Below are positions 11,394 through 63,251 of a stretch of DNA of 64,000 bases, one piece after another. The stretch spans positions 1 to 64,000 of the forward strand of contig JAKCCX010000007.1 of NCBI GenBank assembly GCA_021838715.1. Reading direction: 5' to 3'. The DNA is from Pseudomonadota bacterium (GTDB lineage: Bacteria > Pseudomonadota > Gammaproteobacteria > Burkholderiales > Burkholderiaceae_F). A model generated the notes under the pieces. It searched no databases and was not told where the DNA came from. It saw only the letters and a program-made list of their open reading frames with translations. The position numbers were made by a program, and so were the translations under genes. Numbering within the stretch: position 1 is the stretch's first letter; every line of letters begins with the position of its first letter.

Positions 11394-12352
11394 GCCCGCC
11401 GCGGATCGCGGTCACGACCGGTGAACCGGCGGGGGTCGGTCCGGAAGTGGCGCTGCGCGCCGCGGTCGAATGCGGCGCGCCCTGCGATTTGTTCGGCGAT
11501 GCGGCGCTTCTCGAATCGGTAGCCGGCGCGCTGGGCCTCCCCTGGCCGCCGGCCGCCCCCGTCCGCGTCGTGTCGGAACCGCTGGCGGCGCCGGTGCGCC
11601 CGGGCGTGCCGGATCCGCGCAACGCCCCCTACGTGCTGCGGCTGCTCGATCGGGCGCTGGCGTCCTGGCGTGCCGGAGAGATCGCCGCGATCGCGACGGC
11701 GCCGGTGCACAAGGCGGTGATCAACGATGCCGGGATCGCATTTTCCGGACATACCGAATACCTCGCCGCGGCGACGGGCACGCCGGAAGTCGTGATGATG
11801 CTGGTGGGCGGGGGGCTGCGCGTGGCCCTGGCGACCACCCATCTTGCCCTCGCGGCCGTGCCGGCGGCGATCACCCGGGCACGGCTGGACGCGGCGCTGG
11901 ACATCCTCCATCACGACCTGCGTGACCGCTTCGGCATCGCGCGGCCGCGCATCGCGGTGACGGGCTTGAATCCCCATGCCGGCGAGGGCGGGCATATGGG
12001 ACGGGAGGAAATCGACGTCATCGCTCCGGCGCTGGAGGCCGCGCGCGCCCGCGGCATCGACGCCAGCGGCCCGTGGCCGGCCGACACCGTGTTCGCCGCG
12101 CAGAAGCGCGAGAGCACCCGCGCCGACGCGATCCTTGCGATGTACCACGACCAGGGGCTGGCGACGCTCAAGTACGCGAGCTTCGGCGGCGGCGTGAACG
12201 TCACCCTGGGACTTCCCCTGCCCCGCACCTCGGCCGATCACGGCACGGCGCTCGACATCGCCGGCAAGGGGGTCGCGGACGCCGGGAGCATGCAGGAAGC
12301 GGTGCGCCTGGCGGTCGAACTGGCGGAACGGGAGGCGAGGGGGCATGGATGA
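11390..12352 (+). CDS. pdxA: 4-hydroxythreonine-4-phosphate dehydrogenase PdxA
   Basis: PdxA oxidises 4-phosphohydroxy-L-threonine in the DXP-dependent route to pyridoxal phosphate. The 320-residue protein begins [22 protein letters not shown]. It keeps the family signatures [13 protein letters not shown] and [13 protein letters not shown] (metal-binding His) and [16 protein letters not shown], with [13 protein letters not shown] near the C-terminus. I chose the GTG at 11390, which overlaps the surA stop (GTGA), because it puts the conserved VTTGEPAG motif at the extreme N-terminus. The 3' end overlaps rsmA by 8 bp. Confidence 0.94.
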
Positions 12353-13127
12353 GCACCGCGCGCGGCGCCGTTTCAGCCAGAACTTCCTTCATGACCCCGG
12401 CATCATCGCCCGCATCGTCGCGGCGATCGATCCGCAACCCGGGCAGCACATCGTCGAAATCGGGCCCGGGCTCGGGGCGATCACCGAACACCTGATCGCG
12501 CGGGCGGGACGCATCACGGCGGTCGAGATCGACCGCGACCTCGCGGCGCGCCTGCGGGAACGCTTTGAGCCCGCGCAACTCGAACTGATCGAGGCCGACG
12601 CGCTGACGGTGGATTGGCAAGACCTCGCGCGCGCCGGCGAAGGCGCGCTGCGCATCGCCGGGAATCTGCCGTACCACATCTCGACGCCGTTGCTGTTCGC
12701 GCTGCTGCCGATTGCCGATCGGGTGCGCGACCAGCATTTCATGCTGCAGAAGGAGGTGGTCGATCGCATGGCCGCGCCGCCGGGCGGCAAGGATTACGGG
12801 CGGCTTTCCGTGATGTTGCAATTCCGCTATCGTATCCAGCGTCTTTTCCTGGTGCCGCCCGGCGCCTTCCGGCCCGCCCCCGCGGTGCAATCGGCGATCG
12901 TGCGCATGCGGCCGGTCGCGACGGCGGATCTTCCGGATGTCGACGCGGAAACCTTCGCCAAGGTCGTCACCGCCGGATTCACGCAGCGGCGCAAGACGCT
13001 GCGCAACGCGCTCTCGCAGGTCCTGCCCGAAGCGGCGATCGAAGCCGCGCAGGTCGATCCCGGCGCGCGCGCGGAAACGCTGGACGTCGCCGCGTTCGTA
13101 CGCCTCGCCCGCGCGGCGCAGGGGTGA
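12345..13127 (+). CDS. rsmA: 16S rRNA (adenine1518/1519-N6) dimethyltransferase RsmA
   Basis: RsmA (KsgA) dimethylates two adenosines near the 3' end of 16S rRNA during small-subunit assembly. The 260-residue protein begins [20 protein letters not shown], includes the SAM-binding [15 protein letters not shown] and the catalytic [15 protein letters not shown], and ends with the C-terminal domain carrying [12 protein letters not shown]. It overlaps the pdxA stop by 8 bp, indicating translational coupling in the lptD-surA-pdxA-rsmA unit. Confidence 0.96.
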
Positions 13128-13134
13128 ACCTGCG

Positions 13135-13368
13135 ATGACGCTTCCCATGGCGCTTCCGAGCCCCGCCTACCTCGCCGGAATGCTGTTGTTCGGGTTGATC
13201 GGACTTGCCGCCTTCCGCTACGGCGGCAAGTCCGGCATGCCGGCGGTCAAGTGGATCGGGGCCGCGCTGATGGTCTACCCCTATGCGGTCTCCAGCACAT
13301 GGTTGATCTACGCCGTCGGCGTGGCGCTCTGCGCCATGATGTACTGGCTGCGCGACTGGGGTGCCTGA
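13135..13368 (+). CDS. Small two- to three-helix inner-membrane protein
   Basis: The 77-residue product is mostly hydrophobic, with membrane segments at about residues 8-25 (YLAGMLLFGLIGLAAFRY), 35-52 (WIGAALMVYPYAVSST) and 53-70. It starts 7 bp after the rsmA stop, suggesting it ends the lptD-surA-pdxA-rsmA operon. It resembles small conserved membrane proteins of unknown function in betaproteobacteria. No catalytic motif is visible. The downstream 60 bp (13369-13429) separate it from the convergent TraG-like gene and contain short direct repeats. Confidence 0.7.
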   Translation: MTLPMALPSPAYLAGMLLFGLIGLAAFRYGGKSGMPAVKWIGAALMVYPYAVSSTWLIYAVGVALCAMMYWLRDWGA

Positions 13369-13429: not shown

Positions 13430-15256
13430 TCAGGAAGGATCCGGGCTCTTGCGGGGGCGTGGTGTCCTGGCGGCGCCTGTGGTCTTGCTTCCCGGCTTGC
13501 GGGCCGTCGTCTTCGGTGGTGATGCCTTCGGCGAGGTTCGGGCGCCGCCGCGCGATGCGGCAAGCGGGCCCAGCCCGACCGCACGGTAGACGCGCTGGTT
13601 CCAGCGCCGTCCCAGGGGCGAGTTGACGATCCAGTGCCGGGAGAACGAAATGATCGAGGCGCGCGCGTGCCAGGCGGTCATCAGTGCGGTCTCCATCCGC
13701 GCGCTGGCGTGATAGAGCGCGCGACCTTCTCCGTAGACGATGCCCAGGGCGAGGGTGGGCAAGCCCATGTAGCCGAGGGAGATCGCGATCGACATCGCAC
13801 GGCCGGCGGACCAGGAGCCGTGCGGCGCTCCGCCGACCAGGGAGCCGATCTGCGACAGCGCCGGTTCGATGTCCGCCCACAGATCGAACAGCACGCTCCA
13901 GAGGCTGACGAACGAGATCGGTCCGACCATCCAGGCGACGGCGACGCGCGCGCGCCCGGGCCAGAGCAGCATCCAGCACCCGATGGTGGAGACGAGGATG
14001 GCGATGGTCTTGGCCACGCCCAGGGTGAACGGCAGCACCGCCACCACGAGCGTTGCGAGCGTGCCCAGCATCACCGAGGCGATCGTGAGCAGGACGGTGG
14101 TGATCGGCTGCTCGAGCCAGGTCGTGCGGCTGCTGGTGGTATAGCGATCGCCGGCGGGCATGCGCAGCCGTGCCGCGGTTTCGAGAAGCGGCGCCATGGC
14201 GAGGGCGCAATTGGCATCGCTGGTTCGCTGGCACAGGCTGCCGATCGCGGCCTTCGCCCGGCCGTCGGCGGCGATTCCGGCGGCGGCATCGTAGAACACC
14301 GATCGGCCGATCCGGTCGTACAGGTCTTCGATGCGCGAAACCGGTGCCGCGGAATCGGCCTGCGGGAGCTGGGCGCGCAGCGTCGCCGCGAGCGCATCGG
14401 CATGGCGGATCGCATCGTCGTACGCCGGGGCGTTGTCGAGGCGCCAGGGCAGTCCGGGAATGGCGCCGGCACTGCGCAGGCTGAATGCGATCTGCGCCGG
14501 ATTGCCGGGGGCAGCGGGGATGGTCCACGCCTGCGCGCCGGCATCGCCGGTGATCTGGTTGATCAGCGGCGCCTGCGCGCGCAGCAGGGTGCCCAGGTCG
14601 ATGCCGGCCGCGGCGAGCGCGGCCTGTACGGCCTGTGCCTGGGCGGCGGCGTGCGCACCGATCAACTGCGGGGCGTCGGGCGCCGGCGCGAGCAGGGCGG
14701 GGAGCAGGCCGCTGGCGGCGATCCGCTGCGCCAGCGCGGGATCGTCGTGCAGGATCTGCGGCACGATGTCCTGCCGCCAGATGATCTCGTTGGCCTTGAG
14801 TTGCGGCTCATCGATCAGGGCGGCTTCGTGCGTGATCGCATCCACCTGCGCGGCGACGCCGGGAACCACGAACGCCGGCCCCTGGTGGGTGAGCGCGCGC
14901 AGACTCACCGCCGCGTTCGCCCCCAGGCGTTCGATCCAGTAGGTCAGGTGGGGCGCGGCGCCGGTGCGGGTGCCGAAGAGCCGTTCCACCTCCCCCGGCG
15001 CACCGTAATCGAGCGCGGTGAGGTCGACGCGCTGCGGCACCAGCGTGAGCACGCTCGCCAGCGCAAGGCAGGCAAGATGGCGCAGCCAGATGATCGGTTG
15101 GCCGGCGATCGCACTCTGCAGCATCGCGGCGATCAGTCCGGCCGCGGCCAGCAGATAGAACAGCCAGGCAAGCGATGGACTTGCGAGCGCGGCATCGATG
15201 CGGCCGACCAGGGCGTAGGCCCCCGCGGTGAACAGATCGACGAATTGTTCGCCCAT
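13430..15256 (-). CDS. TraG-like mating-pair/T4SS inner-membrane protein
   Basis: This looks like the TraG N-terminal-domain protein that ends conjugative T4SS operons. The 608-residue product has an N-terminal membrane pair (LAWLFYLLAAAGLIAAML, LACLALASVLTLV), a ~270-residue periplasmic region, then about four membrane segments between residues 370 and 520 (TTVLLTIASVMLGTLATLVV, TIAILVSTIGCWMLLW). A Lys/Pro/Thr/Ser-rich tail follows (about residues 560-608). It lacks the long C-terminal periplasmic domain used by F TraG for stabilisation and entry exclusion, as in ICE-type versions. It is the last gene of the tra-like operon, 10 bp after the TraH-like gene. Confidence 0.75.
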   Translation of the reverse strand: MGEQFVDLFTAGAYALVGRIDAALASPSLAWLFYLLAAAGLIAAMLQSAIAGQPIIWLRHLACLALASVLTLVPQRVDLTALDYGAPGEVERLFGTRTGAAPHLTYWIERLGANAAVSLRALTHQGPAFVVPGVAAQVDAITHEAALIDEPQLKANEIIWRQDIVPQILHDDPALAQRIAASGLLPALLAPAPDAPQLIGAHAAAQAQAVQAALAAAGIDLGTLLRAQAPLINQITGDAGAQAWTIPAAPGNPAQIAFSLRSAGAIPGLPWRLDNAPAYDDAIRHADALAATLRAQLPQADSAAPVSRIEDLYDRIGRSVFYDAAAGIAADGRAKAAIGSLCQRTSDANCALAMAPLLETAARLRMPAGDRYTTSSRTTWLEQPITTVLLTIASVMLGTLATLVVAVLPFTLGVAKTIAILVSTIGCWMLLWPGRARVAVAWMVGPISFVSLWSVLFDLWADIEPALSQIGSLVGGAPHGSWSAGRAMSIAISLGYMGLPTLALGIVYGEGRALYHASARMETALMTAWHARASIISFSRHWIVNSPLGRRWNQRVYRAVGLGPLAASRGGARTSPKASPPKTTARKPGSKTTGAARTPRPRKSPDPS

Positions 15257-15266
15257 GACGCCGCGC

Positions 15267-16610
15267 TCAGTAGTTGGCGAACAGCGGCATCAGGTCGCGC
15301 ATGCCGAATTGCGGTTCCGACCGAACATTCCCCAGGGCATCGGCGCGCGCGGCCGTCTGGGCCCGCACCGCGTCCAATGCGCCGATCTGGGCGCGCGCCA
15401 GACCGGCGCGCGCCTCCTGGGCCTTGGTGAGCACGTTCGCCTCGTCGATCAGATTGCCGATCGCCGCATGCAGTCGTGTCTGCCGTGCGCGGATCTCGGA
15501 TGCATCGGCGGCGATGCCCGGCTTGGCGTCGATGCGGTCGGTCTGCTCATACAGGTCGAGCAGGCGCGAGTACATCGCACTGACGGCGATCTGCGATGCG
15601 AGCGCGTCCTTGTAGAGCGCGCGCGCCGCGGGGTCGAGCAGGCGCACGCTCTGGAATGCGCCCGACGAGACGGTCGCGAAGGCGTCGGCGGGCAGGCATC
15701 CCGCGGGATCGGCGGTTGCAGCGAGCAGCGCGCTGCTGTCGCAGGCCGGAATCTGCGACGGACGGGCGCCGGAGTCGATGCGCTCGAGCGCCGCCCGCGA
15801 CAGCGTGCGATAGCGGTTGGCCATCGAGGCGACCGTCAGGCGCGGGGAGCGGATCTGGAAGGCCCCGTTGGCGATGCGTTCGTCGGGAAGCAGCGCGAGC
15901 AGGGCATCCCCGTCCGGCGTCGGGTTCCACGTGGTGTAGCGGCGCAGGAACGCCGCGGTCGATTCGGTGGCCGCCAGATTCAAATTGGCGAAGAGATGCT
16001 GCACCGAGCAGATCCGGTAGGCGACGGTGGGCGAGGCGCCGCCGGCGATCTGCTGCCCATAGCATTCGTTGCCCGCTTCGGCCATCGTCGTTGCGCCGAG
16101 GCTTTCGCCGCGCGCGCGGTCCGCCTGGGCGTTGCATGCCTGGGTGAATGCAAAGAAGCGCGCCGCGTATTTCTTGTCGAGCATGTCGAGCACCGATGCG
16201 ATCGTCGGACTGGCGTAGGAAAGCGTGATGAGATAGTTCGCGGCGGCGGCCTGGGCGCCGGAGAGCAGCATCTGGCGCAGTTCGGTCAGGAGTTCGGTCG
16301 GGGCGAACGTCTGGAGGAAGCCGTTGAAGTCGACCCCGGAGCAGCCCAGTTGCGTCGCGCCGCCGAAGGACACGCCGGCCGAGACCGCCGCCGGGGGCGT
16401 GTAGGCAGGCTCCGCACCGGTGCCGAGGATCGCGCCGAGACGCGAGTCGGACATCGACTCCGAATAGGGCGTGGCGTTGCCCGGCGGAAACTGCTGCGCG
16501 GCGGCCGCCCCCGGCACGACGAGAATCCACGACAGCGCGAGGCGGCGGCTGCACCTCTCCAGGCGTTGGCGGCTCCATTGCTGTCGATGGTGCAATCGTG
16601 ACGGGATCAT
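15267..16610 (-). CDS. TraH-like T4SS protein (PFL_4711/ICE family resemblance)
   Basis: A secreted 447-residue protein: an Arg-rich n-region, hydrophobic LALSWILVVPGAAAA and a likely cleavage site before QQFPPG. It resembles the TraH-like proteins of integrating conjugative elements (PFL_4711 type) in GCSGVDFNGFLQTFAPTELL, LSGAQAAAANYLITLSYASP and ALLPDERIANGAFQIR. TraH-type proteins act in the periplasm/outer membrane in pilus assembly. The C-terminal ~90 residues are predicted helical with Ala/Gln/Glu/Arg. The ATG at 16610 overlaps the upstream stop (ATGA); no strong Shine-Dalgarno precedes it, which fits translational coupling. The family assignment is from memory of motifs. Confidence 0.7.
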   Translation of the reverse strand: MIPSRLHHRQQWSRQRLERCSRRLALSWILVVPGAAAAQQFPPGNATPYSESMSDSRLGAILGTGAEPAYTPPAAVSAGVSFGGATQLGCSGVDFNGFLQTFAPTELLTELRQMLLSGAQAAAANYLITLSYASPTIASVLDMLDKKYAARFFAFTQACNAQADRARGESLGATTMAEAGNECYGQQIAGGASPTVAYRICSVQHLFANLNLAATESTAAFLRRYTTWNPTPDGDALLALLPDERIANGAFQIRSPRLTVASMANRYRTLSRAALERIDSGARPSQIPACDSSALLAATADPAGCLPADAFATVSSGAFQSVRLLDPAARALYKDALASQIAVSAMYSRLLDLYEQTDRIDAKPGIAADASEIRARQTRLHAAIGNLIDEANVLTKAQEARAGLARAQIGALDAVRAQTAARADALGNVRSEPQFGMRDLMPLFANY

Positions 16611-17059
16611 GGGAGGATTCCTGATGGTGGGTCCGGAGGACCGGAAGCCGCACCGCCGGCGGGATGTTCCTGCTGCAGCGCGGTCATGCGCCTGGCGACG
16701 TATGCCGCGACGGCGAGTGTCTTTTGCTGCGTCCGGATCCATGCCCGGATGTTGTCGTCGGTCGGGTCGAGCAGCGCCCGCACGGCTTCCCGCGGGGGCT
16801 TGCCGTAATCGGCGAGGAAGGCGGAAATTTCCGCGTCGATCCGGCGTTTGCGCAAGACGGCCCGGGCCTGTTGTGCGGGCGTCGCGCAGCGCGTCCAGCC
16901 GGGCCGCAGCGCGGAGCGGCAGTCCGCGATGCGGGGCCCCGGATCTCCCGCTGCCGGAGGGTCCCGGTCCGGCCCTGCCGCGGGCAGCGGTTGTGCCGGG
17001 CTTGCGCCGATGGCGAACGCGGCGCAGCAGGAGGCAAGCAGGAGAACGGCTCGGTGCAT
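16607..17059 (-). CDS. Exported protein of unknown function in the tra-like operon
   Basis: The 150-residue product begins MHRAVLLLASCCAAFAIGA, a signal peptide with a possible early lipobox (LASC). The mature part has a Pro-rich segment, two spaced cysteines (ADCRSAL and TRCATP), and a helical block (FLADYGKPPREAVRALLDPT then NIRAWIRTQQKTLAVAAY), ending in another Pro/Gly-rich tail. It is not recognisable as TraW, TrbC or TraU, but it lies where F-type operons carry traW-traU-trbC. Its stop overlaps the TraH-like start by 4 bases, and it starts 14 bp after the preceding gene. Confidence 0.65.
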   Translation of the reverse strand: MHRAVLLLASCCAAFAIGASPAQPLPAAGPDRDPPAAGDPGPRIADCRSALRPGWTRCATPAQQARAVLRKRRIDAEISAFLADYGKPPREAVRALLDPTDDNIRAWIRTQQKTLAVAAYVARRMTALQQEHPAGGAASGPPDPPSGILP

Positions 17060-17073
17060 TGCGGGGTTCTCCC

Positions 17074-17631
17074 TCACCGCCCGGGCGCGCCGAACACCCG
17101 GGCGTCGATCGCGACCTCGGCGAGCGGATCCGGCGTCGATTGGTGACGAATGCGGCCATGCCGGCGATGGCCGTGGTGGTGCTGTCGTGGCGGGATGCGT
17201 GCCCCGATTCGCCGCGCGGTGGCCGATGGCGGCCGGCGCCCCGGACGCGATGCGGGCATCGGGCCTGCGCCATGGCCGGCACCCTCCGGCCTGCTGGCGG
17301 GCGCCGTCTCGGTCCCGCTCGGTGGCCGGGGATCCTGCGTTGCCGGACGGACCGGCGGCGGCGCCGGAAGGGCGGCGGGCCGTGCTGGCGCGGTGACCGC
17401 GCCTTGCGGCGGCGCATGGCCGGTTCCGAGGTCTACCGGCGCGATCGGATCGGCAGCGCGCCGCAACGCGCCGGACGGATGATTCCCCCGATCCGCTGTG
17501 CCGCCGGTGACGCCGAAGAGCCAGGGCGCGATCGCGGCGAGCGCGGCAAGCGCGACGATCGCGCCGGCGGCCCGGATGCGCACGCGGCGCCGCTTCGCCG
17601 CCGGATCGATCGAGAGGTCGGGAAGTTTCAC
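17074..17631 (-). CDS. Bitopic Pro-rich membrane protein in the tra-like operon
   Basis: The GTG start at 17631 overlaps the TraC-like stop (GTGA). The 185-residue product has a basic cytoplasmic start (DPAAKRRRVRIR), one membrane segment (AGAIVALAALAAIAPWLFGV, about residues 23-42) and a long periplasmic part rich in Pro, Ala and Arg, with a His/Arg cluster (PPRQHHHGHRRHGRIRH). The topology and position directly after traC recall TrbI of F-type systems, but no sequence motif supports that identity. The low-complexity composition makes homology hard to judge. Confidence 0.6.
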   Translation of the reverse strand: MKLPDLSIDPAAKRRRVRIRAAGAIVALAALAAIAPWLFGVTGGTADRGNHPSGALRRAADPIAPVDLGTGHAPPQGAVTAPARPAALPAPPPVRPATQDPRPPSGTETAPASRPEGAGHGAGPMPASRPGRRPPSATARRIGARIPPRQHHHGHRRHGRIRHQSTPDPLAEVAIDARVFGAPGR

Positions 17632-20279
17632 GACGACGGTCCCGGGTCGGCCGTGCGCGCGATGCCATATGGAAATTCGTGCGCGAACCGTTGCAGCGCC
17701 GCAAGCATGTCGCCGCATTCCCGGACCATGCGTTCGATCCGGTCCTCGTCGACAGGGTCGGTGGTCGAGACGGCATAACGGAGCGGGTCGGGAATCAGCA
17801 ATCCCTTTGCCGCACGCATCCCGTCGATCGAGACGAAAAATTCGCTGTAGCGGCGTTTCACCAGTCGCAGGTTGCGCACGATCTCGAGCTCGCGCTCGTT
17901 GAGCCGCACGTAGCGTTGCAGGTCGTTGTGGCCGGCTCGGTCCATCGGCAGGACGATCTTGGTCGCCGTGTTGACGAGCATGACGCGGCCGCTGGGCGTG
18001 TCGAGGTCCTGCGGGTCCTGCACGATGGGGATCGCAAATCCGCCGAGGCTGCGGTACGCCTTGAGCGACCGCTCCAGGATCGCGGCGGCATGATCGTTGC
18101 GCACCAGCGCCCACACTTCATCGGCGACCAGTCCCTTGGGCACCGCACGCAGCGCCGGATCGGCCATCACCTCGTCGACGATGCCGAACACACAGAACGA
18201 CACGAGCGCGGCGCAAGGCTGGCGCAGGATGCCGCCGAGATTGAAGAACACGAACCGGTCGTCCGCCCGAATGCCGCGCGGCGCATTGAAGAGCTTGCGA
18301 TATGGTCCTTTGCGGTACGGGTGGAGCCGTTGCGCAAGCCCGCGCCCCAGCGGCCCGATGCGTTCGAGTTCTGCACAGACGTCGTCGAGAACGGTTTCGC
18401 GCACCGGCACGTCGCGCAGCGCATCCCAGTTCCGTTGTGCGGCGGTCATCGCCGCGGTCTGGAGCGCAACTTCCTCTTCACGGGAAATCGCCTCCTGCGG
18501 CCCGCCCTCGGTGATCATCAGCATGAGTGCCGCGAACCAGCGCGCCTGGTTCTCGAGCGTCGGCCGCCCGTGGAACGGGTTGAGGGAAATGTCGCTGTCC
18601 AGGGTCAATTCCACGTAGCGGCCGAGCAGCATCGCGAGCTTGCGATAGTCGGCCTTGATCGACACCAGGAACAGGCGGATGTCGGGAAGACGCCAGAGCT
18701 GCAGCAGGTAGTCGTGGACGAAGAAGCTCTTTCCCGAACCCGACTGGCCGACGATGAGCGCGTGCGGGTTCTTTTCCGCCTTGGTGGGGTCGAGAAACAG
18801 CGGCTCGCCGGACGGGCTGCTGTAGAGCACGATCGGCGCGCGGTCGCGGTCGGAGACGGCATCTTCGGCCGCAATTCCCGTCCAGCATCCGCCCGCGGGA
18901 TGGATGTCGGCGCAGTCGCGCGACAGCATGCGGCGTCGGCGGCGCAACGCGCGTTCGGTGAGCGGATAGACCGTGAAGGGCAGGCAGCCCCGCAGCAGCA
19001 GGGAACTGCCGATGTCCGATTCCGGCGCCGATTCGATGTCCGCCTGCTCGAGGATCTTGCAGACCCGCGCCGCCGCATCATCGGCCGCTTCGGCGCGATC
19101 CTCGCTGATGTGGATCTGCAGGCGGGTTTCGAAGATGCGTTCCCCGTCGGCGAAGATCCGGTGTTCGACGTCGTGCAGCGCCTCGGTCCGCGCCTGCATC
19201 TCCGTTTCATTGAATCGATGGGTGGAGCGCGCGTTGAGCAGCGCGCGGGCCTTGATCTGTGCCAGCGCACGGACGGGCGGAATCGGGGTTGCGGCAACGC
19301 ATACGGTGATACGCGGCAGCGCAACCGCCAGCGCATCGAGCATGCCTGAGGCGACGGCCCGCGGCGGCCAAAGCATGGATACCACCCGGTGGTGCATCAC
19401 CGCGCCGCGCGCCACGCTGCGGAATCCGGGACCGTCGATGCCCTCGATGCGCCCGAGCGCGCCGATCGCCGCGCGCAACTCCTCGCCGCAGGAATCCAGG
19501 CCACGGTTCGCATCGTCTGCGACGGCGTGGTCGCCTGCCGGTCGATCGGCGGCGCCGCGTTGCGGAAACAACTGCGCGCCGACCCAATCGACCAGACCTT
19601 GCGCGTCGAGCGCGGCCGGCTCCCATCCCTGGGCCTGCGCGGCGGCAAGCACGTCGCGGATGCCGGCGACGAACCGGGCGGCGCGTCGCTGTGCGCCGGT
19701 CGGCGGCGCGGCGGCATGCTGGCCGTCATGCGGGTCGTCGGGGGACGGAGCGAAGGGACGGCGCAGCAAGGCGCGAAGACCCGGGCGCGCGAGGCCCAGC
19801 GGTTCGGACTTGATCGCAACCGCAAGAATGCGCTGCCGGGGAACCAGGTTGATGGCCCGGTCGTCCGGAAAAAATCCTTCGCCGCAGGCGCGCTGCCAGC
19901 GGTCGACGATCCGGTCGGTGAACAGACGGCCGCAGGCGTCGATGCCGGGCTGGCCGCGATAACGGCGCAGCGCGGCGTCGACCTGCGGTTCGCTGCGGGC
20001 GAACCATTGCCAGTGCGACCCCGCCGGAAGGGCGTGCAGCATCGCGAGGATGCCCTGCGCAACGTCGTCCTCCGCGTTGGGAACGGTGTCGACGGTGGGG
20101 GGAAAAAGGGTGAACGCATAGCCGAGCGCGTCGTCGGCGAGGAGATGCAGCGGACCGAACCCCTGGAACTCGCCGCAGTGCAGGTAGGGCAGCTCGGCTG
20201 CCAGCGATGGGTGGTGTTGCCCCGCTCGACCGGCCAGAGCACGTCGACGCCGCCCGAACAGGCGCTCAGCGGCCCGCAT
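17628..20279 (-). CDS. TraC/VirB4-like conjugative transfer ATPase
   Basis: This is the motor ATPase of the T4SS, peripheral on the inner membrane. The 883-residue protein has an N-terminal TraC/VirB4 domain and a C-terminal P-loop ATPase domain. Walker A is GQSGSGKSF at residues 511-519; Walker B is LVADEVWAL near residue 713; a later FAIPIVQDPQDLD resembles the VirB4 sensor region. Length matches TraC of F and ICE systems (about 870-900). I prefer ATG 20279 to GTG 20285 because GAGGG lies 5-9 bases before it. Both start choices overlap the lipoprotein gene. The catalytic motifs look intact. Confidence 0.88.
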   Translation of the reverse strand: MRAAERLFGRRRRALAGRAGQHHPSLAAELPYLHCGEFQGFGPLHLLADDALGYAFTLFPPTVDTVPNAEDDVAQGILAMLHALPAGSHWQWFARSEPQVDAALRRYRGQPGIDACGRLFTDRIVDRWQRACGEGFFPDDRAINLVPRQRILAVAIKSEPLGLARPGLRALLRRPFAPSPDDPHDGQHAAAPPTGAQRRAARFVAGIRDVLAAAQAQGWEPAALDAQGLVDWVGAQLFPQRGAADRPAGDHAVADDANRGLDSCGEELRAAIGALGRIEGIDGPGFRSVARGAVMHHRVVSMLWPPRAVASGMLDALAVALPRITVCVAATPIPPVRALAQIKARALLNARSTHRFNETEMQARTEALHDVEHRIFADGERIFETRLQIHISEDRAEAADDAAARVCKILEQADIESAPESDIGSSLLLRGCLPFTVYPLTERALRRRRRMLSRDCADIHPAGGCWTGIAAEDAVSDRDRAPIVLYSSPSGEPLFLDPTKAEKNPHALIVGQSGSGKSFFVHDYLLQLWRLPDIRLFLVSIKADYRKLAMLLGRYVELTLDSDISLNPFHGRPTLENQARWFAALMLMITEGGPQEAISREEEVALQTAAMTAAQRNWDALRDVPVRETVLDDVCAELERIGPLGRGLAQRLHPYRKGPYRKLFNAPRGIRADDRFVFFNLGGILRQPCAALVSFCVFGIVDEVMADPALRAVPKGLVADEVWALVRNDHAAAILERSLKAYRSLGGFAIPIVQDPQDLDTPSGRVMLVNTATKIVLPMDRAGHNDLQRYVRLNERELEIVRNLRLVKRRYSEFFVSIDGMRAAKGLLIPDPLRYAVSTTDPVDEDRIERMVRECGDMLAALQRFAHEFPYGIARTADPGPSS

Positions 20280-20631
20280 GGTCACCCTCGGCCCAATCGA
20301 AGTCGGATACCGGGATCGCCACCCAGCTGCCGAAGTGCTTGTTGTGTTCCGCGTCGACCCACGAATAGAGGTAGGCCATGCGGATGTCCGGCGGCCGGAT
20401 CGCCGGGCGGGGAATCGGCGACCCCGTGCCGGCGTCGTCGCCGTGCCGAGGCGGCACGACCGCTGCGGTTTCGAGGACGCGCAGCGAATCGCCGCGTGCC
20501 TGCTTCAGGGCCTGGTTCATCGACATCGTGGGCACCGATACGTTGGTGGCGGGAACGGCGCACGCCGACAGCGCGAGGGCGGTGACGGTGGCCATTGCGC
20601 GGAGCGCTACAGGGGAAAGGGTATGGTTCAT
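20266..20631 (-). CDS. T4SS-associated lipoprotein (TraV-position)
   Basis: The 121-residue product has a signal peptide with lipobox LSAC (Cys near residue 24), then a short polar region with a Pro-rich linker and a conserved-looking end (IRMAYLYSWVDAEHNKHFGSW). It lies between the TraB-like and TraC-like genes, where F and ICE conjugation operons encode the TraV-type outer-membrane lipoprotein of the core complex. Its ATG overlaps the TraB-like stop (ATGA), and its 3' end overlaps the ATPase gene. The identity rests on position, lipobox and size. Confidence 0.7.
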   Translation of the reverse strand: MNHTLSPVALRAMATVTALALSACAVPATNVSVPTMSMNQALKQARGDSLRVLETAAVVPPRHGDDAGTGSPIPRPAIRPPDIRMAYLYSWVDAEHNKHFGSWVAIPVSDFDWAEGDHAGR

Positions 20632-21746
20632 GGCAGTGCGATATGCGTCGGGGTTATGGCGCGTCCGCTTGCGGGGACGCGCAGATCGTTGGCGAGCACG
20701 ACCGTCACCGGGGTGCCGCCGCCCACCTGCAGCGATGGGCTGTACAGGTTGTAGTAGTCGTTGATCGATTGCGTGAGCGCATTCGATGCGCCGACGGCGG
20801 CGCCGCCGGTCGCATCGCGCATGGGGCTGCCGACGAAATTCGCACTCGCCCCCATCGCCATCGCGCTGTATTGGTACTGCTCCTGACTCAACCGCTGCCC
20901 ATATCCGCTCAGGGCGCCGCCGGCCGCGGCGACCAGGGTCTTCCGGCCCAGGTTTTCGACGATCGTCGCCCGTACGCCGCGGATCCCGTCGCGGTCGACC
21001 AGCCAGCCCGCCGTATCCCAGGTGCGGGATGCGCCATCGGGAAAGGTGCAGGTCAAGCGCGCAAGCTTGAAATCGATGCGCCCGGCGGCGATTTCCGGCC
21101 GACCCTGTACGAGTGCGAAACAGCCGTCGAGATCGGAAGAAAACGCGTTGGCGGACCGATAGCGGCCGTGCAGCGCGACCAGGCTCTCGCGGTCGGACCC
21201 GCCGACGATGGCGACCACGCCGTTGAGCAGCGTCCCCGCGATGAATCCGTTGGGCACGATGTCCGGCTCTTCGTCCGGCTTGGATTCCGCGGCCGGCGCG
21301 TCGTCCGCAACCGCCGCGCGTCGGACGTGCACGCGCGGCGCGGCGATCGGTGCGGGCGATGCGCTGTCCGACGCTGGACGCAGCGACTGCTGCAACGCGC
21401 CGAGCCGGCGGGAGAGTTCGGCATCGAGCTGCGTACGCTGTTGCGATTCGAACGCGCGCAGCCGCTGCTCCTGTTCATGGCCGGATTGCGTGAGGGAACG
21501 CTGCATCTGGTCGGTGACCTGCCGCTGGAACGACTGGATGAATTGTTCGGTCGGAATCGCCGCGCCGAATCGGGCCGATCCGGCGGCCGCGATGTTGCCG
21601 CTGCCTGCGGCGTGCAGCGCGCCGATCGGGGCGCAGGCGATTGCCGCCGACATCGCCCGGGCCACCGTACGGCGCGTTCCCGCGCGTCGCGGCCGGGGGC
21701 GAGGCCGCGATGATGGAAGGAATCCTGGGGTCGGCCGGCGCATCAT
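20628..21746 (-). CDS. TraB/VirB10-like T4SS core-channel protein
   Basis: The 372-residue protein matches the C-terminal TraB/TrbI fold: IVPNGFIAGTLLNGVVAIVGG, FALVQGRPEIAAGRIDFKLARLTCTFPDG, GVRATIVENLG, and a Gly/Ala-rich region that in VirB10 forms the outer-membrane antenna. Between residues ~60 and 110 a Gln/Arg-rich coiled-coil precedes a Pro/Ala linker. Unusually, the N-terminus (Arg/Pro-rich, then VARAMSAAIACAPIGALHAAG) looks like a cleavable signal rather than the long inner-membrane anchor of VirB10/TraB. It starts at 21746, overlapping the TraK-like stop (ATGA). Confidence 0.78.
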   Translation of the reverse strand: MMRRPTPGFLPSSRPRPRPRRAGTRRTVARAMSAAIACAPIGALHAAGSGNIAAAGSARFGAAIPTEQFIQSFQRQVTDQMQRSLTQSGHEQEQRLRAFESQQRTQLDAELSRRLGALQQSLRPASDSASPAPIAAPRVHVRRAAVADDAPAAESKPDEEPDIVPNGFIAGTLLNGVVAIVGGSDRESLVALHGRYRSANAFSSDLDGCFALVQGRPEIAAGRIDFKLARLTCTFPDGASRTWDTAGWLVDRDGIRGVRATIVENLGRKTLVAAAGGALSGYGQRLSQEQYQYSAMAMGASANFVGSPMRDATGGAAVGASNALTQSINDYYNLYSPSLQVGGGTPVTVVLANDLRVPASGRAITPTHIALP

Positions 21747-22612
21747 CGATCCGCATAGACGAGATATCCCTGCGTCGATGGATGCGCGGCATCGAGTCGA
21801 AAGTCGTCTGCGCCCATCGCGCGCAGGATTCCGAGCCGTGGAATGCGGATGTCGATGTCGGCGGGGACGACCGGAAGCGACCCTGGTGGAACGCTCGCCT
21901 GGATGCGTACGACGATGCCGGTGATGCCGCGCGGCAGTCGCCACAATTGTCGTGCGGCGATGCGGTACGGTGCCTGGTCGAGCAAAATGCGCCGGCTGGG
22001 CTCGATCTCCGATCCGGGAGGTGGGCTGGCGCGCATCATCGCCTTGAGCGCATCGAGTACCGCTTTTTCACCGGGATCGGCGGGCGCTCCGCCTGGGCGG
22101 GGCGCGAGATCGTGAACCGTGACGATCGGGGTATAGGGCAGCGCGCTGCTGACGCGCGCGAGGTACAGCGTGCCCGTCCTGCGGCCGCGCATGGTCAGGC
22201 GCTGCTCGATCCCGGCCTTGCGCGGCCGGATGATCAGGGTGCGATCGTCGAGCAGCGTGCAGGCGACGTCGTCGTCGTGCTCCCAGACGTCGTCGAAGGG
22301 CTCCGGCATCACCAGCCGGGTGTCGGAGCCCAGGCGCACCGGGACGCGCAGGGTGGTTGCGCCGGTCCAGACCGCGTCGGTGTTGATCGGTGCCGTCCCG
22401 GCCTGGCTCTGGTTCGCGGTCTCCGACGCACCGGCCGGGTTGCCTGCGGTGGCCGCGACGCACAGCAGGACCAGCGCGGCGAATCCGCGCGCGCCCCCTT
22501 GATCCGCGGCGCAAGCGCGACCCGACCGCAAGGGCGCGGCTGTGCTCGCCGATGGGTTTCGGGCCATTGGCGCGTGCGGCGCCGGGTCCGGTTCACGAAT
22601 GTATCGAGTCAT
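21743..22612 (-). CDS. TraK-like T4SS secretin-type protein
   Basis: The 289-residue exported protein has a hydrophobic signal segment (GFAALVLLCVAATAGNPAGA, about residues 40-60) after a long polar n-region; a second ATG 15 codons in may be the real start. The body is beta-rich (TTLRVPVRLGSDTRLVMPEPFDDVW, DRTLIIRPRKAGIEQRLTMRG) as in TraK/VirB9-type proteins that form the outer-membrane ring with the lipoprotein and TraB. Order L-E-K-B in the operon supports the assignment. Its start overlaps the TraE-like stop (ATGA). Confidence 0.75.
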   Translation of the reverse strand: MTRYIREPDPAPHAPMARNPSASTAAPLRSGRACAADQGGARGFAALVLLCVAATAGNPAGASETANQSQAGTAPINTDAVWTGATTLRVPVRLGSDTRLVMPEPFDDVWEHDDDVACTLLDDRTLIIRPRKAGIEQRLTMRGRRTGTLYLARVSSALPYTPIVTVHDLAPRPGGAPADPGEKAVLDALKAMMRASPPPGSEIEPSRRILLDQAPYRIAARQLWRLPRGITGIVVRIQASVPPGSLPVVPADIDIRIPRLGILRAMGADDFRLDAAHPSTQGYLVYADR

Positions 22613-23217
22613 TTCGTCTCCTCGTCGAGCACGTTGAAATCCTCCAGAACGATTCCCGCGCGATTGCGCTCCGACGGCGACCCCCATCTCAATTGCAATC
22701 GGACGCGGCATCGGTTGCGGTTCATCGGCAGGCCGCTGGCGTAGACGGTCCGCTCGCCGTCGACCGCGTACTCGTACCGGCCCGAGCCGATCCGCCGCAA
22801 CGATTCCGTTCCCGGGCTTGCGAAGAAGGTCCGCGACTGGTTCTGCGCTTCGACGTCGCGCTGCAATCCGCTGCGCGCCAGCCGCAGCGCCGGGAGGAAG
22901 CGCGGCGCGGCGAAGGTTTCGAGTTCATCGAATCGCTCGGCGAAGCTGCGCGGCCCGCCGAAATTGGTGGCGAGCGTGGCCAGATACCGTGCCGTGGCAC
23001 GCATCTGCTCCTCGGTGATCCCCGGCGTGTAGACGCCGCCGATCGCGCCGGGGACGACGAACACCGGCATGTGCCGCACCAGTTCCTGCGCGCTGCCGGC
23101 GGTATGGACCGCGAAGGCCAGACTGGCGGCGGCGACGGCGAACAGCGCGATGCCGCTGGTCGCGGCGAGCGTGATCGCGCGGTGGATCGCCTGTTCGAGC
23201 GTGCGGAATTCGGTCAT
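22609..23217 (-). CDS. TraE-like T4SS inner-membrane protein
   Basis: A bitopic protein of 202 residues with one N-terminal membrane helix (GIALFAVAAASLAFAVHTA, about residues 22-40) and a periplasmic domain. The segment VVPGAIGGVYTPGITEEQMRATARYLATLATNF resembles the TraE motif region, and TraE is the F-type counterpart of VirB8. It lies 16 bp after the TraL-like gene and overlaps the TraK-like start. I see no frameshift or missing region, and the length agrees with TraE (about 190-210). Confidence 0.75.
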   Translation of the reverse strand: MTEFRTLEQAIHRAITLAATSGIALFAVAAASLAFAVHTAGSAQELVRHMPVFVVPGAIGGVYTPGITEEQMRATARYLATLATNFGGPRSFAERFDELETFAAPRFLPALRLARSGLQRDVEAQNQSRTFFASPGTESLRRIGSGRYEYAVDGERTVYASGLPMNRNRCRVRLQLRWGSPSERNRAGIVLEDFNVLDEETK

Positions 23218-23233
23218 GGTCGTCCCCCGCCGA

Positions 23234-23485
23234 TCACGGATCCAGGCTGCGCAGACGCCGGTCGAGCAGCCCGCGCAGATTGATGCCGGCGCGATAGGCG
23301 CGGTGCGCGAGGTAGCCTTCCGGCTTGCCCAGGGTGCAGCGCACCGTGAGCGCACAGGCGACCGCACCGGCTCCCAGTGCGAAGAGCGGATCGACGGTGC
23401 GCAGCAGGAAGAGCGGTACCAGGAAGGCCATGCAGTACTCGCCGATGCGGCTCGCGTTGTCGATCAGGCGCGGAACCGGCCTCAC
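23234..23485 (-). CDS. TraL-like T4SS inner-membrane protein
   Basis: The 83-residue product starts with GTG at 23485, overlapping the pilin-like gene's stop (GTGA). It shows the TraL pattern: an N-terminal PRLIDNASRI segment, a short hydrophobic hairpin (AFLVPLFLLRTVDPLFALGAGAVACALTVR) and a C-terminal GKPEGYLAHRAYRAGI, like the conserved polar C-terminal region of TraL. TraL-type proteins are the VirB3 equivalent, needed for pilus assembly. Length matches TraL (85-110). Confidence 0.72.
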   Translation of the reverse strand: MRPVPRLIDNASRIGEYCMAFLVPLFLLRTVDPLFALGAGAVACALTVRCTLGKPEGYLAHRAYRAGINLRGLLDRRLRSLDP

Positions 23486-23826
23486 CCTGCACCCCCAAGC
23501 GCCTGCGCGGTGTTGCGCATCGAGATGACGATGAGCGGGACGAAGAAGATCAACGCGCCGGCCACCATCACTCCCAGCGCATGCATGAAGCCGCGTTCGA
23601 GAAAGAGGTAGATGCCGAGGCCGACGATGACGGCGGAGCCGACCAGGCCCCAGGGCCCGTAGAGCACACTGCGGAATGCCGTCCACAGCGTGGTGCCGGC
23701 GTCCGGCCCCATATTGCTGATGGCCTGCGCGGCGGCGATCGCCGGCAGCAGCGCAAGGGTCGTTGCGACGGCGCAGGCCGGCGTTCGCATGCTGCGTCGG
23801 CGCGGTGTGGATGCCGGGTTGGTCAT
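23482..23826 (-). CDS. Pilin-like (TraA/VirB2-type) T4SS subunit
   Basis: The 114-residue precursor has a long signal peptide (Arg-rich start, then ACAVATTLALLPAIAAAQA) and a mature part of about 78 residues with two hydrophobic helices (GLVGSAVIVGLGIYLFLERG and GVMVAGALIFFVPLIVISM) joined by a short loop. That is the layout of TraA/VirB2 major pilins. As first gene of the operon it would give the most abundant product. The Shine-Dalgarno AGGGA sits 7-8 bases before the ATG, but is paired inside a predicted hairpin (see 23831-23871). Confidence 0.75.
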   Translation of the reverse strand: MTNPASTPRRRSMRTPACAVATTLALLPAIAAAQAISNMGPDAGTTLWTAFRSVLYGPWGLVGSAVIVGLGIYLFLERGFMHALGVMVAGALIFFVPLIVISMRNTAQALGGAG

Positions 23827-23830
23827 CGGA

Positions 23831-23871
23831 GATTCCCTGGTGATGGCCCCGGACGGGGCGACGAGGGAATC
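23831..23871 (-). promoter_or_regulatory. Leader hairpin that occludes the pilin gene Shine-Dalgarno
   Basis: In the minus-strand transcript, GATTCCCT (23871-23864) can pair perfectly with AGGGAATC (23838-23831), which contains the Shine-Dalgarno of the pilin-like gene starting at 23826. Inside the loop a second stem, GCCCC-GTCC-GGGGC (23859-23846), stacks between the arms. The start codon lies 4 bases after the outer stem. The pairing is read directly from the sequence; a role as thermometer, attenuator or protein-controlled switch is inference. Confidence 0.5.
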
Positions 23872-23982
23872 TTGCGGTGCGTCGGCGCGCTGCGCACTAC
23901 CGGAACTGGTCTTGTCCGGTGCGCCGTGGCGCCTTATCGCGCTTGCGCCAACGCGGCGTTGCGCGCCGCCGCGCCTTCCGGC

Positions 23983-24831
23983 CTAAAACGGCAGCGCCGA
24001 CAGGTCTTCGTTGCGGATCCGGTCGCGCGCGACCTCGAACCCCGGGAGCAGGCGGCCGACCTGACGCCAGAATTCCGGTCCGTGGTTGAGTTCCTTGCGG
24101 TGCGCGAGTTCATGCGCAACCACATAGTCGATCATCGATAAGGGGAAATGGATCAATCGCCAGTTGAGGCGGATACGGCCGTCGGCGCAGCAGGAACCCC
24201 AGCGCGAACGCGCGGAGGACAGCGCCCAGGAGGTGTACGTGACGCCGTTGCGCAGCGCCAATTCGCGCAGCCGCGATCCCAGCACCCGCTGCGCTTCGGC
24301 TTTGAGCCACGTCTGCACGGCGTCGCGGATCTGCGCTTCGGCAGCCTGCGGCGGTAGTGCCAGCCGCAGTTCGTCCGGCGTCGCAGGCTCGGACGGAGGG
24401 TCGCCGCCGGCCGTGCATACCAGTTCCGAGGCGCGCAGATCGCCGCGCAGCCGCAGGGTGATCTGCACGCCGAGGTAGGGCAGGGTGCCGCCGTCGCAGA
24501 ACCGCACCTGCGGCAGCTTGCGTCGCGCACGCCATTGCCGCCATTGGTCGAGACGCGTGCGGATCCAGCGCTCCTTCTCGACGATCGCCGTTTCGATGTC
24601 GCGCAGCGACACCCAGCGCGGCGCACTGACGGTCAGGCCGCGGTCGTCGATCTGGAAGCCGATGGTGCGCCGGCGCGCGCGCCGGAGGCGGTAGGCGTAG
24701 GTCTCGCCGGCGAGCAGGATGCGGCGTTCCGGCGGGAGCCCGTCGGCGGAGGGGCGGACCGCCGACGGCGGATCCGGCAGATCCGGGAGCGGGATCAGGT
24801 CGAGGCTGAGCTGCCGCGGGACGCTAGCCAT
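23983..24831 (-). CDS. YgjP/WLM-type zinc metallopeptidase
   Basis: The 282-residue cytoplasmic protein carries the zinc motif HELAHRKELNHGPEFW near its C-terminus (HExxH with a downstream His), as in the YgjP/DUF45 family. Upstream features include RARRRTIGFQIDDRGLTVSAP and SSARSRWGSCCADGRIRLNWRLI, both typical of the family. Function in the cell is not established. It overlaps the plsC stop by 8 bp and ends 156 bp before the pilin gene start, so readthrough into the tra-like operon is possible. Confidence 0.85.
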   Translation of the reverse strand: MASVPRQLSLDLIPLPDLPDPPSAVRPSADGLPPERRILLAGETYAYRLRRARRRTIGFQIDDRGLTVSAPRWVSLRDIETAIVEKERWIRTRLDQWRQWRARRKLPQVRFCDGGTLPYLGVQITLRLRGDLRASELVCTAGGDPPSEPATPDELRLALPPQAAEAQIRDAVQTWLKAEAQRVLGSRLRELALRNGVTYTSWALSSARSRWGSCCADGRIRLNWRLIHFPLSMIDYVVAHELAHRKELNHGPEFWRQVGRLLPGFEVARDRIRNEDLSALPF

Positions 24832-61562: not shown

Positions 61563-63251
61563 ATGACGGTGAATATCAATGCATCCATCATCGACCAACG
61601 GGTAACCGGCGTTCAAGGGGAAATCGCGGAACAGGCCTATCGCGAATTTGGCCTCAACGACCACAGTCGTCTGAAATCTCTGGCGTTTATCTACCTTTGC
61701 GTCAAGACCATGCTGGATCTCGATGCCGACGAGGCGTTCGACTGTCTGACGGATGGTGGAGGCGACTTTGGGGTCGACGCCATGCACGTCACGGAGGAAA
61801 TGGACGGTGAATTTGGCGTCACGCTGTTCCAGGGGAAATATAAGCGAGTCCTCGATGGTGCATCCAATTTTGAAAAGGCCGGGATCGAAGCGCTAACGAA
61901 TGCCGTCGGCCATATTTTCGATCCGTCGGCCGAGTTGGGGGCGATCAATGATCGCCTCCGGGTAAAGGTCGAAGAGGCAAGGTCGATGATTCGAGATGGA
62001 TTTATTCCTCGTGTGCGCGCCATTGCTTGCAACAACGGGCTGAAATGGAATGCCGACGCACAATCCGCGATCGATCGCGCGGGTTTTGGCGAACAGGTCG
62101 CATGGGAGCACGTCAATCATGATGTGCTTGTTAATGTCTTGCAGCGCATTCGGCCTGTCGATGACGTCATGCGCTTGACCGGTCAAGCGATTGTGGAGGA
62201 TATGAACTTCAGTCGCGTTTGCATCGGCCGCGTGCCGGTTTCCGAAGTTGCCGCTCTGATGAGGACGCACGGAGATCGCCTTCTGGAGCGCAATATTCGG
62301 CGATATCTGGGGTTGCACGGAAACCGCGTCAACGAGGGGATCCGCGGCACCTTGCTTTCGGGCGCGCCGGAAAATTTTTACTTCTTCAATAATGGATTGA
62401 CCCTCGTCTGCGACGATTTTTCATACAACGCGTTGCAGAGCAGCAATTTTCAGGTCAGGATCGAAAACCTGCAGATCGTTAACGGTGGACAGACCTGCAT
62501 GACGATTCTGAAAACGTCGGAAGAACTGGAAAGATCTGGAAAGACACTGCCGGCCGACGCGAGCGTCCTGGTACGGATCTACAAGCTGCCGCGGGACAAC
62601 GAAGACATCGTCTTGCAAATTACGCATGCGACCAATAGCCAGAACCCCGTCGACCTGAAGGACTTGCGCGCCAACGACGGGAAGCAGAGACAACTAGAGC
62701 AGAGCATTCAGGATCTGGGATACAACTACCGACGGAAGCGATTGGACGGCACCGCGAAGCCTACGGACATTACGTCGGGTGCGGCGGCGGAGGCGGTGCT
62801 GGCAGTCTGGCGCCAGGCTCCGCACCAGGCGAAATTCTTGACTCGCGAGCACTTCGGAAAGCTCTATGGCTCGATTTTTTCGGATTCGCTCAATGGGGCA
62901 CAGGTTCTGGCAGCGGTCCTCCTCTATCGGATTGCGGAAAATCATCGGCGGCGTCCTCACGAAGGTGACCCGTTGTTTGTCCGCTACGCGTCGTGTTTCA
63001 TTGCGATGCAGATGGGGCGGCGTTTATTGAAGGATCTGGGCGTTGACCTTGGCGGGCTCGATCACAACAACTTTTCCCAAGCCAAATCGCATATCGAGGA
63101 CTTGGGGGAATCCTACTTTGCCGCATCTCGGGGTGACATCGAGGCGGCTTTGAAGGCGCTCTATGGCCGCGACGAGGTTTCCGTCCAGCAGCTTTCCGCA
63201 ACGTTTCGGCGCGGCGATCTGATTGAAAAGCTTAAACGAACCGAGGTGTGA
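61563..63251 (+). CDS. AIPR-family putative phage-defence protein
   Basis: The 562-residue protein matches the AIPR (abortive infection/phage resistance) family: FYFFNNGLTLVC at residues 272-283 and IENLQIVNGGQTCMTIL, with QIVNGGQT at 304-311. The N-terminal ~110 residues contain DFGVDA (Asp72) and LFQGKYK (Gln90, Lys92), resembling the D-(x)n-(E/Q)xK signature of PD-(D/E)XK restriction nucleases. Its base composition is visibly lower in G+C than neighbours, with more AT-ending codons, suggesting horizontal acquisition. Its stop is 1 bp from the stop of the convergent membrane-protein gene. Confidence 0.83.
   Translation: MTVNINASIIDQRVTGVQGEIAEQAYREFGLNDHSRLKSLAFIYLCVKTMLDLDADEAFDCLTDGGGDFGVDAMHVTEEMDGEFGVTLFQGKYKRVLDGASNFEKAGIEALTNAVGHIFDPSAELGAINDRLRVKVEEARSMIRDGFIPRVRAIACNNGLKWNADAQSAIDRAGFGEQVAWEHVNHDVLVNVLQRIRPVDDVMRLTGQAIVEDMNFSRVCIGRVPVSEVAALMRTHGDRLLERNIRRYLGLHGNRVNEGIRGTLLSGAPENFYFFNNGLTLVCDDFSYNALQSSNFQVRIENLQIVNGGQTCMTILKTSEELERSGKTLPADASVLVRIYKLPRDNEDIVLQITHATNSQNPVDLKDLRANDGKQRQLEQSIQDLGYNYRRKRLDGTAKPTDITSGAAAEAVLAVWRQAPHQAKFLTREHFGKLYGSIFSDSLNGAQVLAAVLLYRIAENHRRRPHEGDPLFVRYASCFIAMQMGRRLLKDLGVDLGGLDHNNFSQAKSHIEDLGESYFAASRGDIEAALKALYGRDEVSVQQLSATFRRGDLIEKLKRTEV

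Follow-up and report, generated by a model that had tools for sequence, protein, structure and literature searches.

An apparently domesticated F-family type IV secretion machine without a coupling protein at a shared chromosomal site in a lineage of Burkholderiales

A 64,000-nucleotide stretch of burkholderialean DNA (hereafter, the window) carries, on the minus strand at positions 13430-23826, eleven intact, contiguous open reading frames that encode a divergent type IV secretion system (T4SS) of the F family. Very probably, this block is a domesticated machine that lacks a coupling protein (T4CP) and is maintained by selection. Its presence at the same site in related species, dN/dS values of its core genes like those of the flanking genes, the identity of the last 78 pilin residues among four species, and the absence of a T4CP jointly argue for a retained machine rather than a recent remnant. 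The machine probably still works and makes a pilus, without DNA transfer of its own; that pili or cell contact would be its main function is a more tentative proposal, possible rather than probable. The block is not a chance assemblage, given that its genes have homologues in the same order in three other congeneric species (48-96% at the amino acid level), a second genus (locus L033), plasmid pOS401 and two genomes from outside the family. Hereafter, G000 denotes the genome of the window, G001, G002 and G005 species of the same genus, G006 a deeper branch of that genus, G012 (L033) and G026 (L034) the sister genus, and G076 and G242 the genomes from other families.

An earlier note, made from the sequence of the window, had described eleven open minus-strand frames of an F-type T4SS, joined from the pilin gene to the traH-like gene by 4-base overlaps or short gaps, and this description proved accurate to the coordinate (Table 1). 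Overlaps of 4 bases each join A/L, E/K, K/B, B/V, C/g8, g8/g9 and g9/H, the V/C junction measures 14 bases, and gaps of 16 and 10 bases separate L from E and H from G, so that all neighbors within the block overlap or lie at most 16 bases apart. The gene order, A-L-E-K-B-V-C-[TrbI position]-[TraF-like]-H-G, is that of the F plasmid, and it supports the F-type identity along with profile searches and homologues. On one side, the block is flanked by rsmA, with an open reading frame for a small membrane protein behind it, and on the other side, by wlm (a YgjP/WLM peptidase gene), the last of the codirectional run glyQ-glyS-plsC-wlm. The G+C content of the block equals that of its flanks, as the note had remarked. 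Within the window, there was no tRNA or Rfam match, and no att-like pair of terminal repeats was found; integrase families were checked through scans of selected window proteins.

Table 1. Coordinates of the block and of neighboring features in the window, with the evidence for each assignment
Feature	Position	Strand	Evidence or remark
rsmA	12345-13127		flanks the block
73-aa membrane protein	13147-13368	+	between rsmA and the block
TraG N-terminal-like polytopic membrane protein (VirB6 type), 608 aa	13430..15256	-	several membrane segments
TraH-like periplasmic protein, 447 aa	15267..16610	-	six conserved cysteines; F TraH rank 1
g9, TraF-like N-terminal part, 156 aa from GTG start	16607..17077	-	F TraF rank 1
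g8, TrbI position, 185 aa, one membrane anchor and proline-rich tail	17074..17631	-	
TraC/VirB4 ATPase, 883 aa	17628..20279	-	TIGR02746, E 7e-44, under equivalog cut-off
TraV-like lipoprotein (VirB7 type), 121 aa	20266..20631	-	position; lipobox-like start
TraB-like (VirB10 type), 372 aa	20628..21746	-	PF03743 TrbI/TraB, E 1.7e-9, above cut-off
TraK-like (VirB9 type), up to 289 aa, start uncertain	21743..22612	-	homologues match TraK_C weakly
TraE-like (VirB8 type), 202 aa	22609..23217	-	homologues match PF05309 TraE, E 5e-10, 8e-8, 1e-5
TraL-like (VirB3 type), 83 aa, GTG start	23234..23485	-	order; weak match of G012 homologue to PF07178 TraL, E 0.025
TraA-like pilin, 114 aa	23482..23826	-	PF04956 TrbC/VirB2, E 8e-6, just under cut-off
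Inverted repeat AGATTCCCT-25 nt-AGGGAATCT	23830..23872	-	just before pilin start
wlm (YgjP/WLM peptidase gene)	23983-24831		flanks the block
AIPR/AbiU-like phage-defence gene	61563-63251	+	after uvrD

Two other features of the window deserve mention in their own right. The 73-amino-acid membrane protein shows no family match and is encoded at the same place only in the four close carriers of the block, not in the genomes in which the site is empty (see below). The AIPR/AbiU-like gene lies in a stretch with a G+C content of 0.57-0.60, against about 0.69, and was probably acquired.

Significant matches to their own families were obtained for TraC, TraB and the pilin; the remaining proteins gave none and were assigned through their homologues and the F gene order. 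TIGR02746 is the best family for the ATPase, which contains the Walker A motif GQSGSGKS and the Walker B motif LVADEV. In profile comparisons, F TraB ranked first for the TraB-like protein (probability 96%), and F TraK ranked top among 28 F proteins for the TraK-like protein; the matches to the TraE family come from the homologues in pOS401, G076 and G242, and the g9 homologue on pOS401 matches PF13728 (TraF, E 0.0042). Six cysteines are conserved among the TraH-like homologues, spaced almost as in F TraH, and the lengths are similar (447 versus 457 amino acids); only one of the seven members matches Pfam TraH, and weakly. For the TraG-like protein, F TraG ranked first with negligible probability, and the pOS401 homologue weakly matches PF07916 (TraG_N); at the sequence level, the identification of TraG and TraL is weak. 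The earlier note needs two corrections: its 'TraG' corresponds to the N-terminal, VirB6-like part only (608 versus 938 amino acids in F), and the two genes that it had left unassigned sit at the TrbI and TraF positions, both lacking the C-terminal domain of their relatives. By equivalence among T4SSs, the component types are VirB2, 3, 4, 6, 7, 8, 9 and 10, plus TraH and a piece of TraF. Among solved structures, there was no sequence match to F TraH or to the N-terminal region of F TraG and none useful for the TraH-like (g10) family; the TraE-like and TraH-like proteins, modelled with AlphaFold from three close sequences, gave unusable predictions, with mean pLDDT values of 40 and 42. No relative of the TraH-like protein was found on viral contigs.

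The block resembles the F plasmid tra system (MPF_F) in gene order, in the homology of TraC and TraB, and in the cysteine spacing of TraH, but differs from it in the absence of TraU, TraW, TraN, TrbC, TraD, TraI and the C-terminal part of TraG. Its plasmid counterpart is the T4SS of pOS401 (AP026971.1, Comamonadaceae bacterium OS-4), which has the same eleven-part order, with homologous A, L, E, K, B, V, C, g9, H and G (24-36% amino acid identity over the best segments), and likewise shows no gene for TraU, TraW, TraN or TrbC in the cluster. Unlike the block, the pOS401 cluster is plasmid-borne, opens with a VirB1-type transglycosylase, includes one extra gene and full-length g8 and g9, and is followed downstream by a T4CP (with TraG-D_C and TrwB-type domains) and then a helicase gene; the same T4CP-helicase pair is found about 7 kb from the cluster in G076. 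Thus, pOS401 and G076 provide a picture of the mobile form of this machine. As an aside, pOS401 (L037, 904-24945) is typed 'non-mobilizable' in PLSDB despite its T4SS and T4CP, also carries a type IV thin-pilus set (PilB, PilT-like and pilin-like genes), and is likely an unrecognised type of conjugative plasmid.

The statement of the earlier note that no relaxase, coupling protein, TraU/W/N or transglycosylase accompanies the block is confirmed; nor does the block encode an adhesin, TraN or a VirB5-like tip protein. Beyond the block, the pOS401/G076-type T4CP was undetected in 9/9 family genomes searched, among them G001, which is complete, and G002, with 100% completeness, and no TrwB-type T4CP was found in G000, G002, G012 or G026. 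Of the three relaxase types tested, MOBF and MOBP were not found in G002, MOBH was not found in any genome searched, and none of the three was found near the block in its relatives. In G001, TrwB-type T4CPs and MOBF/MOBP relaxases are paired at sites distant from the block, and these pairs belong to other elements. Separately, an 8.7-kb contig of the window's genome (L117, C76) carries a MOBP relaxase (about 794 amino acids) and toxin-antitoxin-like gene pairs, with no T4CP seen on it, and is likely a mobilisable element.

The phyletic distribution of the machine is narrow. Most of the genomes compared are apparently metagenome assemblies, and the absences given here come from profile searches of genomes that, G001 and G002 excepted, are incomplete. 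At E<=1e-40, the TraC subfamily was recovered, among 399 genomes of the order, only in the genus of the window, G076 and G242; a survey of the family yielded it in 6/67 genomes and 2/18 genera, and in a class-wide sample of 369 genomes, the window's own genome was the sole carrier. Among 72,556 plasmids, a single one, pOS401, encodes the TraH-like protein. In G001, G002 and G005, both the block order and the two neighbors (wlm and rsmA) are the same as in the window; in G006, the part of the block that is on the contig adjoins wlm; and in G012, the block also adjoins wlm, with no rsmA on the far side within the 12 kb examined. In G003 and G004, sisters of G006, rsmA and wlm are adjacent, about 350 and 130 bases apart, that is, the site is empty. 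In G026, the block is found on other contigs, and a glyoxalase gene comes after wlm. Most simply, the block would have been acquired once, before the two genera split, lost once in the line of G003 and G004, and relocated in G026. The alternative is independent or repeated arrivals, which are possible given that the G026 block is away from wlm and that the A-L-E-K tree does not resolve the position of G006, with the genus clade not rejected (AU p 0.19). The wlm-rsmA interval itself varies across the family and so tolerates insertions: several genera have a glyoxalase and an S9 peptidase gene there, and G023 (L076 6931-17043) has a 10-kb insert with OmpA-like and SARP-like regulator genes. The G242 cluster of the same subfamily (L084/L085, C8, about 288000-300000) likewise stands among ordinary chromosomal genes, flanked by a gene of sugar-kinase type and by an ABC transporter operon. 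The stretch examined contains no pOS401-type T4CP, and a divergent T4CP-like match lies on another contig; this cluster may be a second, independent stand-alone case.

Comparison of four species by the Nei-Gojobori method indicates that the core of the block has evolved much like its surroundings. The dS values of the block genes (0.31-0.61) overlap those of the flanks (0.23-0.42), and dN/dS for A, L, E, K, B, C, H and G is 0.11-0.18 (0.11 for TraC), similar to the 0.06-0.18 of the flanking housekeeping genes. All four species share the same 78 C-terminal pilin residues, despite 15-25 differences in the DNA. Three genes are loosely constrained, namely, TraV (0.32), g9 (0.36) and g8 (0.61), and two of these, g8 and g9, are also truncated relative to the pOS401 and G076 proteins, the shortenings being common to all four close species. 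The g8 protein ends just short of the conserved C-terminal domain of its relatives, a domain without a Pfam name, and g9 lacks the thioredoxin-like C-terminal domain of its relatives; G012 and G026 also have this domain, at least roughly. In the latter two genomes, the g8 equivalent is fused in frame to the end of TraC, as a tail that consists of a membrane anchor, a proline-rich part and the C-terminal domain, which suggests that g8 works with the ATPase. We infer that g8 and g9 were shortened as a still functional machine was streamlined, and not through decay.

In the inverted repeat in front of the pilin gene, the arms are identical in the four species, and the loop and the upstream DNA vary. 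The 3' arm contains the predicted ribosome-binding site, and the repeat is unique in the window and absent from G006 and G012. Its fold z is only -1.66. The repeat is perhaps a translation switch or an operator.

Of the two readings offered by the earlier note, the domesticated apparatus is upheld by the fixed site, the flank-like dS, purifying selection, the intact frames and the lack of the T4CP that accompanies plasmid relatives. The other, an ICE remnant with recently lost ends, is not supported, in that the block occurs in species that diverged deeply and in another genus, and its core genes are under constraint as strong as that on housekeeping genes; a recent remnant is rejected by dS, dN/dS and conservation. 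Premature stops in relatives, which the note had considered a sign of such a remnant, were not found, the block frames being intact in every relative. Non-functional decay of an ICE or plasmid is very improbable: the loose constraint on g8, g9 and TraV, the shortening of the first two, and the lack of the block in two members of the genus point in this direction, but all four close species share the shortenings, the core retains intact, constrained genes and an invariant mature pilin, the site is fixed, and decay is contradicted by the four-species dN/dS and by the pilin.

In the simplest scenario for the domesticated machine, a plasmid or ICE machine resembling those of pOS401 and G076 would have entered an ancestor and settled beside wlm. 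The relaxase, T4CP, VirB1-type transglycosylase and the ends of the element would then have been lost, the accessory g8 and g9 shortened, and the block kept by vertical inheritance, fixed in the chromosome. What remains is an outer-membrane core (K, B, V), an inner-membrane platform (L, E, G), the ATPase C and the pilin A, and the ATPase might still drive pilin through the K-B-V core into a conjugation-type pilus. With no coupling protein, cytoplasmic DNA or protein cargo would have no known entry, so that the pilus itself could be the product, mediating contact, adhesion or biofilm formation, as proposed for Bartonella Trw; VirD4-less pilus systems have precedent (PMC12857230). Because no substrate gene is linked to the block, contact or adhesive pili require the fewest further assumptions. 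Weighing against this reading, the block encodes no adhesin, TraN or VirB5-like tip protein, two sister genomes live without it, the host already has type IV pili, and repeated acquisition of the block is possible.

Other functions have to be weighed against a pilus, and two of them, two-step protein export and DNA uptake, are still serious contenders. The block could be a two-step protein exporter, whose substrates would reach the periplasm via Sec and exit through the outer-membrane core, pushed by the pilus, with no need for a T4CP, a mechanism proposed for Bordetella Ptl and partly for Brucella VirB. The missing T4CP and the selection on the core complex, ATPase and pilin agree with this possibility, as does the fact that MOBless chromosomal T4SSs are often protein exporters (PMC3158045; PMC12857230). 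However, the operon consists of apparatus genes only, with no substrate gene linked to it in any relative, and we consider export unlikely. Mobilisation in trans, whereby the machine would transfer the DNA of other elements with their own relaxase and T4CP, seems quite improbable. The MOBP relaxase on another contig of the window's genome and the several relaxase-T4CP pairs in G001 could serve such a role, but G002 has the block without any relaxase (MOBF/MOBP/MOBH) or T4CP, the cognate T4CP was not detected in any of the family's carriers, and the G001 T4CPs, near relaxases at distant sites, are parts of other elements. Since no relaxase of the three types and no T4CP were found in the 100%-complete G002, DNA release of the gonococcal-island kind is unlikely as well.

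DNA uptake, with a pilus or pseudopilus that would bring DNA to the periplasm and ComEC taking it onward, by analogy with ComB or Ced/Ted, is improbable, even though the component types equal those of Helicobacter ComB (VirB2-4 and 6-10, with no VirD4, VirB5 or VirB11; PMC12857230). The carriers G000, G001, G002, G012 and G026 have ComEC and DprA, and the empty-site genomes G003 and G004 (88% and 83% complete) gave no match to either; yet these two are incomplete sisters, so that the absence is one event at most, the carrier G005 gave no ComEC match, and the blockless G014 and G023 have both proteins. Moreover, the carriers possess PilT, PilU, PilQ and PilB, that is, ordinary uptake through type IV pili is available to them, and a T4SS that replaces type IV pili in this capacity is rejected on these grounds. 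There is a slim chance that the block is a native organ of DNA import or cell-to-cell exchange, an analogue of ComB or Ced made of F-type parts, operating beside type IV pili and ComEC. The archaeal Ced and Ted systems, like the block, are chromosomal takeovers of a conjugation pilus machine without a relaxase, but they consist of VirB2/4/6-type parts only and are experimentally tied to DNA transfer (PMC9905601).

Relaxase-less and T4CP-less T4SSs are already known. MOBless chromosomal T4SSs, with no relaxase nearby and with some members in MPF_F, have been delineated as a computed class (Guglielmini et al. 2011, PMC3158045), and a fixed site, selection and T4CP loss of the kind seen here are not among the features described in the part of that work considered. 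Bartonella Trw, Bordetella Ptl, Brucella VirB and Helicobacter ComB are VirD4-less T4SSs (PMC12857230), and the outcomes of this type of reduction include two-step protein export, effector delivery, adhesive pili and DNA uptake (PMC12857230). Like these systems, the block retains the core complex, the VirB4 ATPase, the pilin and, putatively, the pilus, with the T4CP absent, which places it among VirD4-less domesticated T4SSs; they are VirB-type machines of host-associated bacteria, whereas the block combines F-family parts with TraH and a TraF-like protein. A literature search, which was not exhaustive and did not cover preprints, recovered no report of a characterised stand-alone F-family T4SS of such composition.

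The well-studied takeovers of conjugation machines covered by a review of VirD4-less systems involve VirB-type or Dot/Icm-type systems, mostly in host-associated bacteria (PMC12857230). A stand-alone machine of the F family, long retained after the loss of its transfer genes and with a frozen pilin core, raises the question of which F parts suffice for a useful organelle. With no TraU, TraW, TraN, TrbC or T4CP, the block is a natural reduced F-like set for asking what a lone pilus does, and its plasmid relatives represent the 'before' state.
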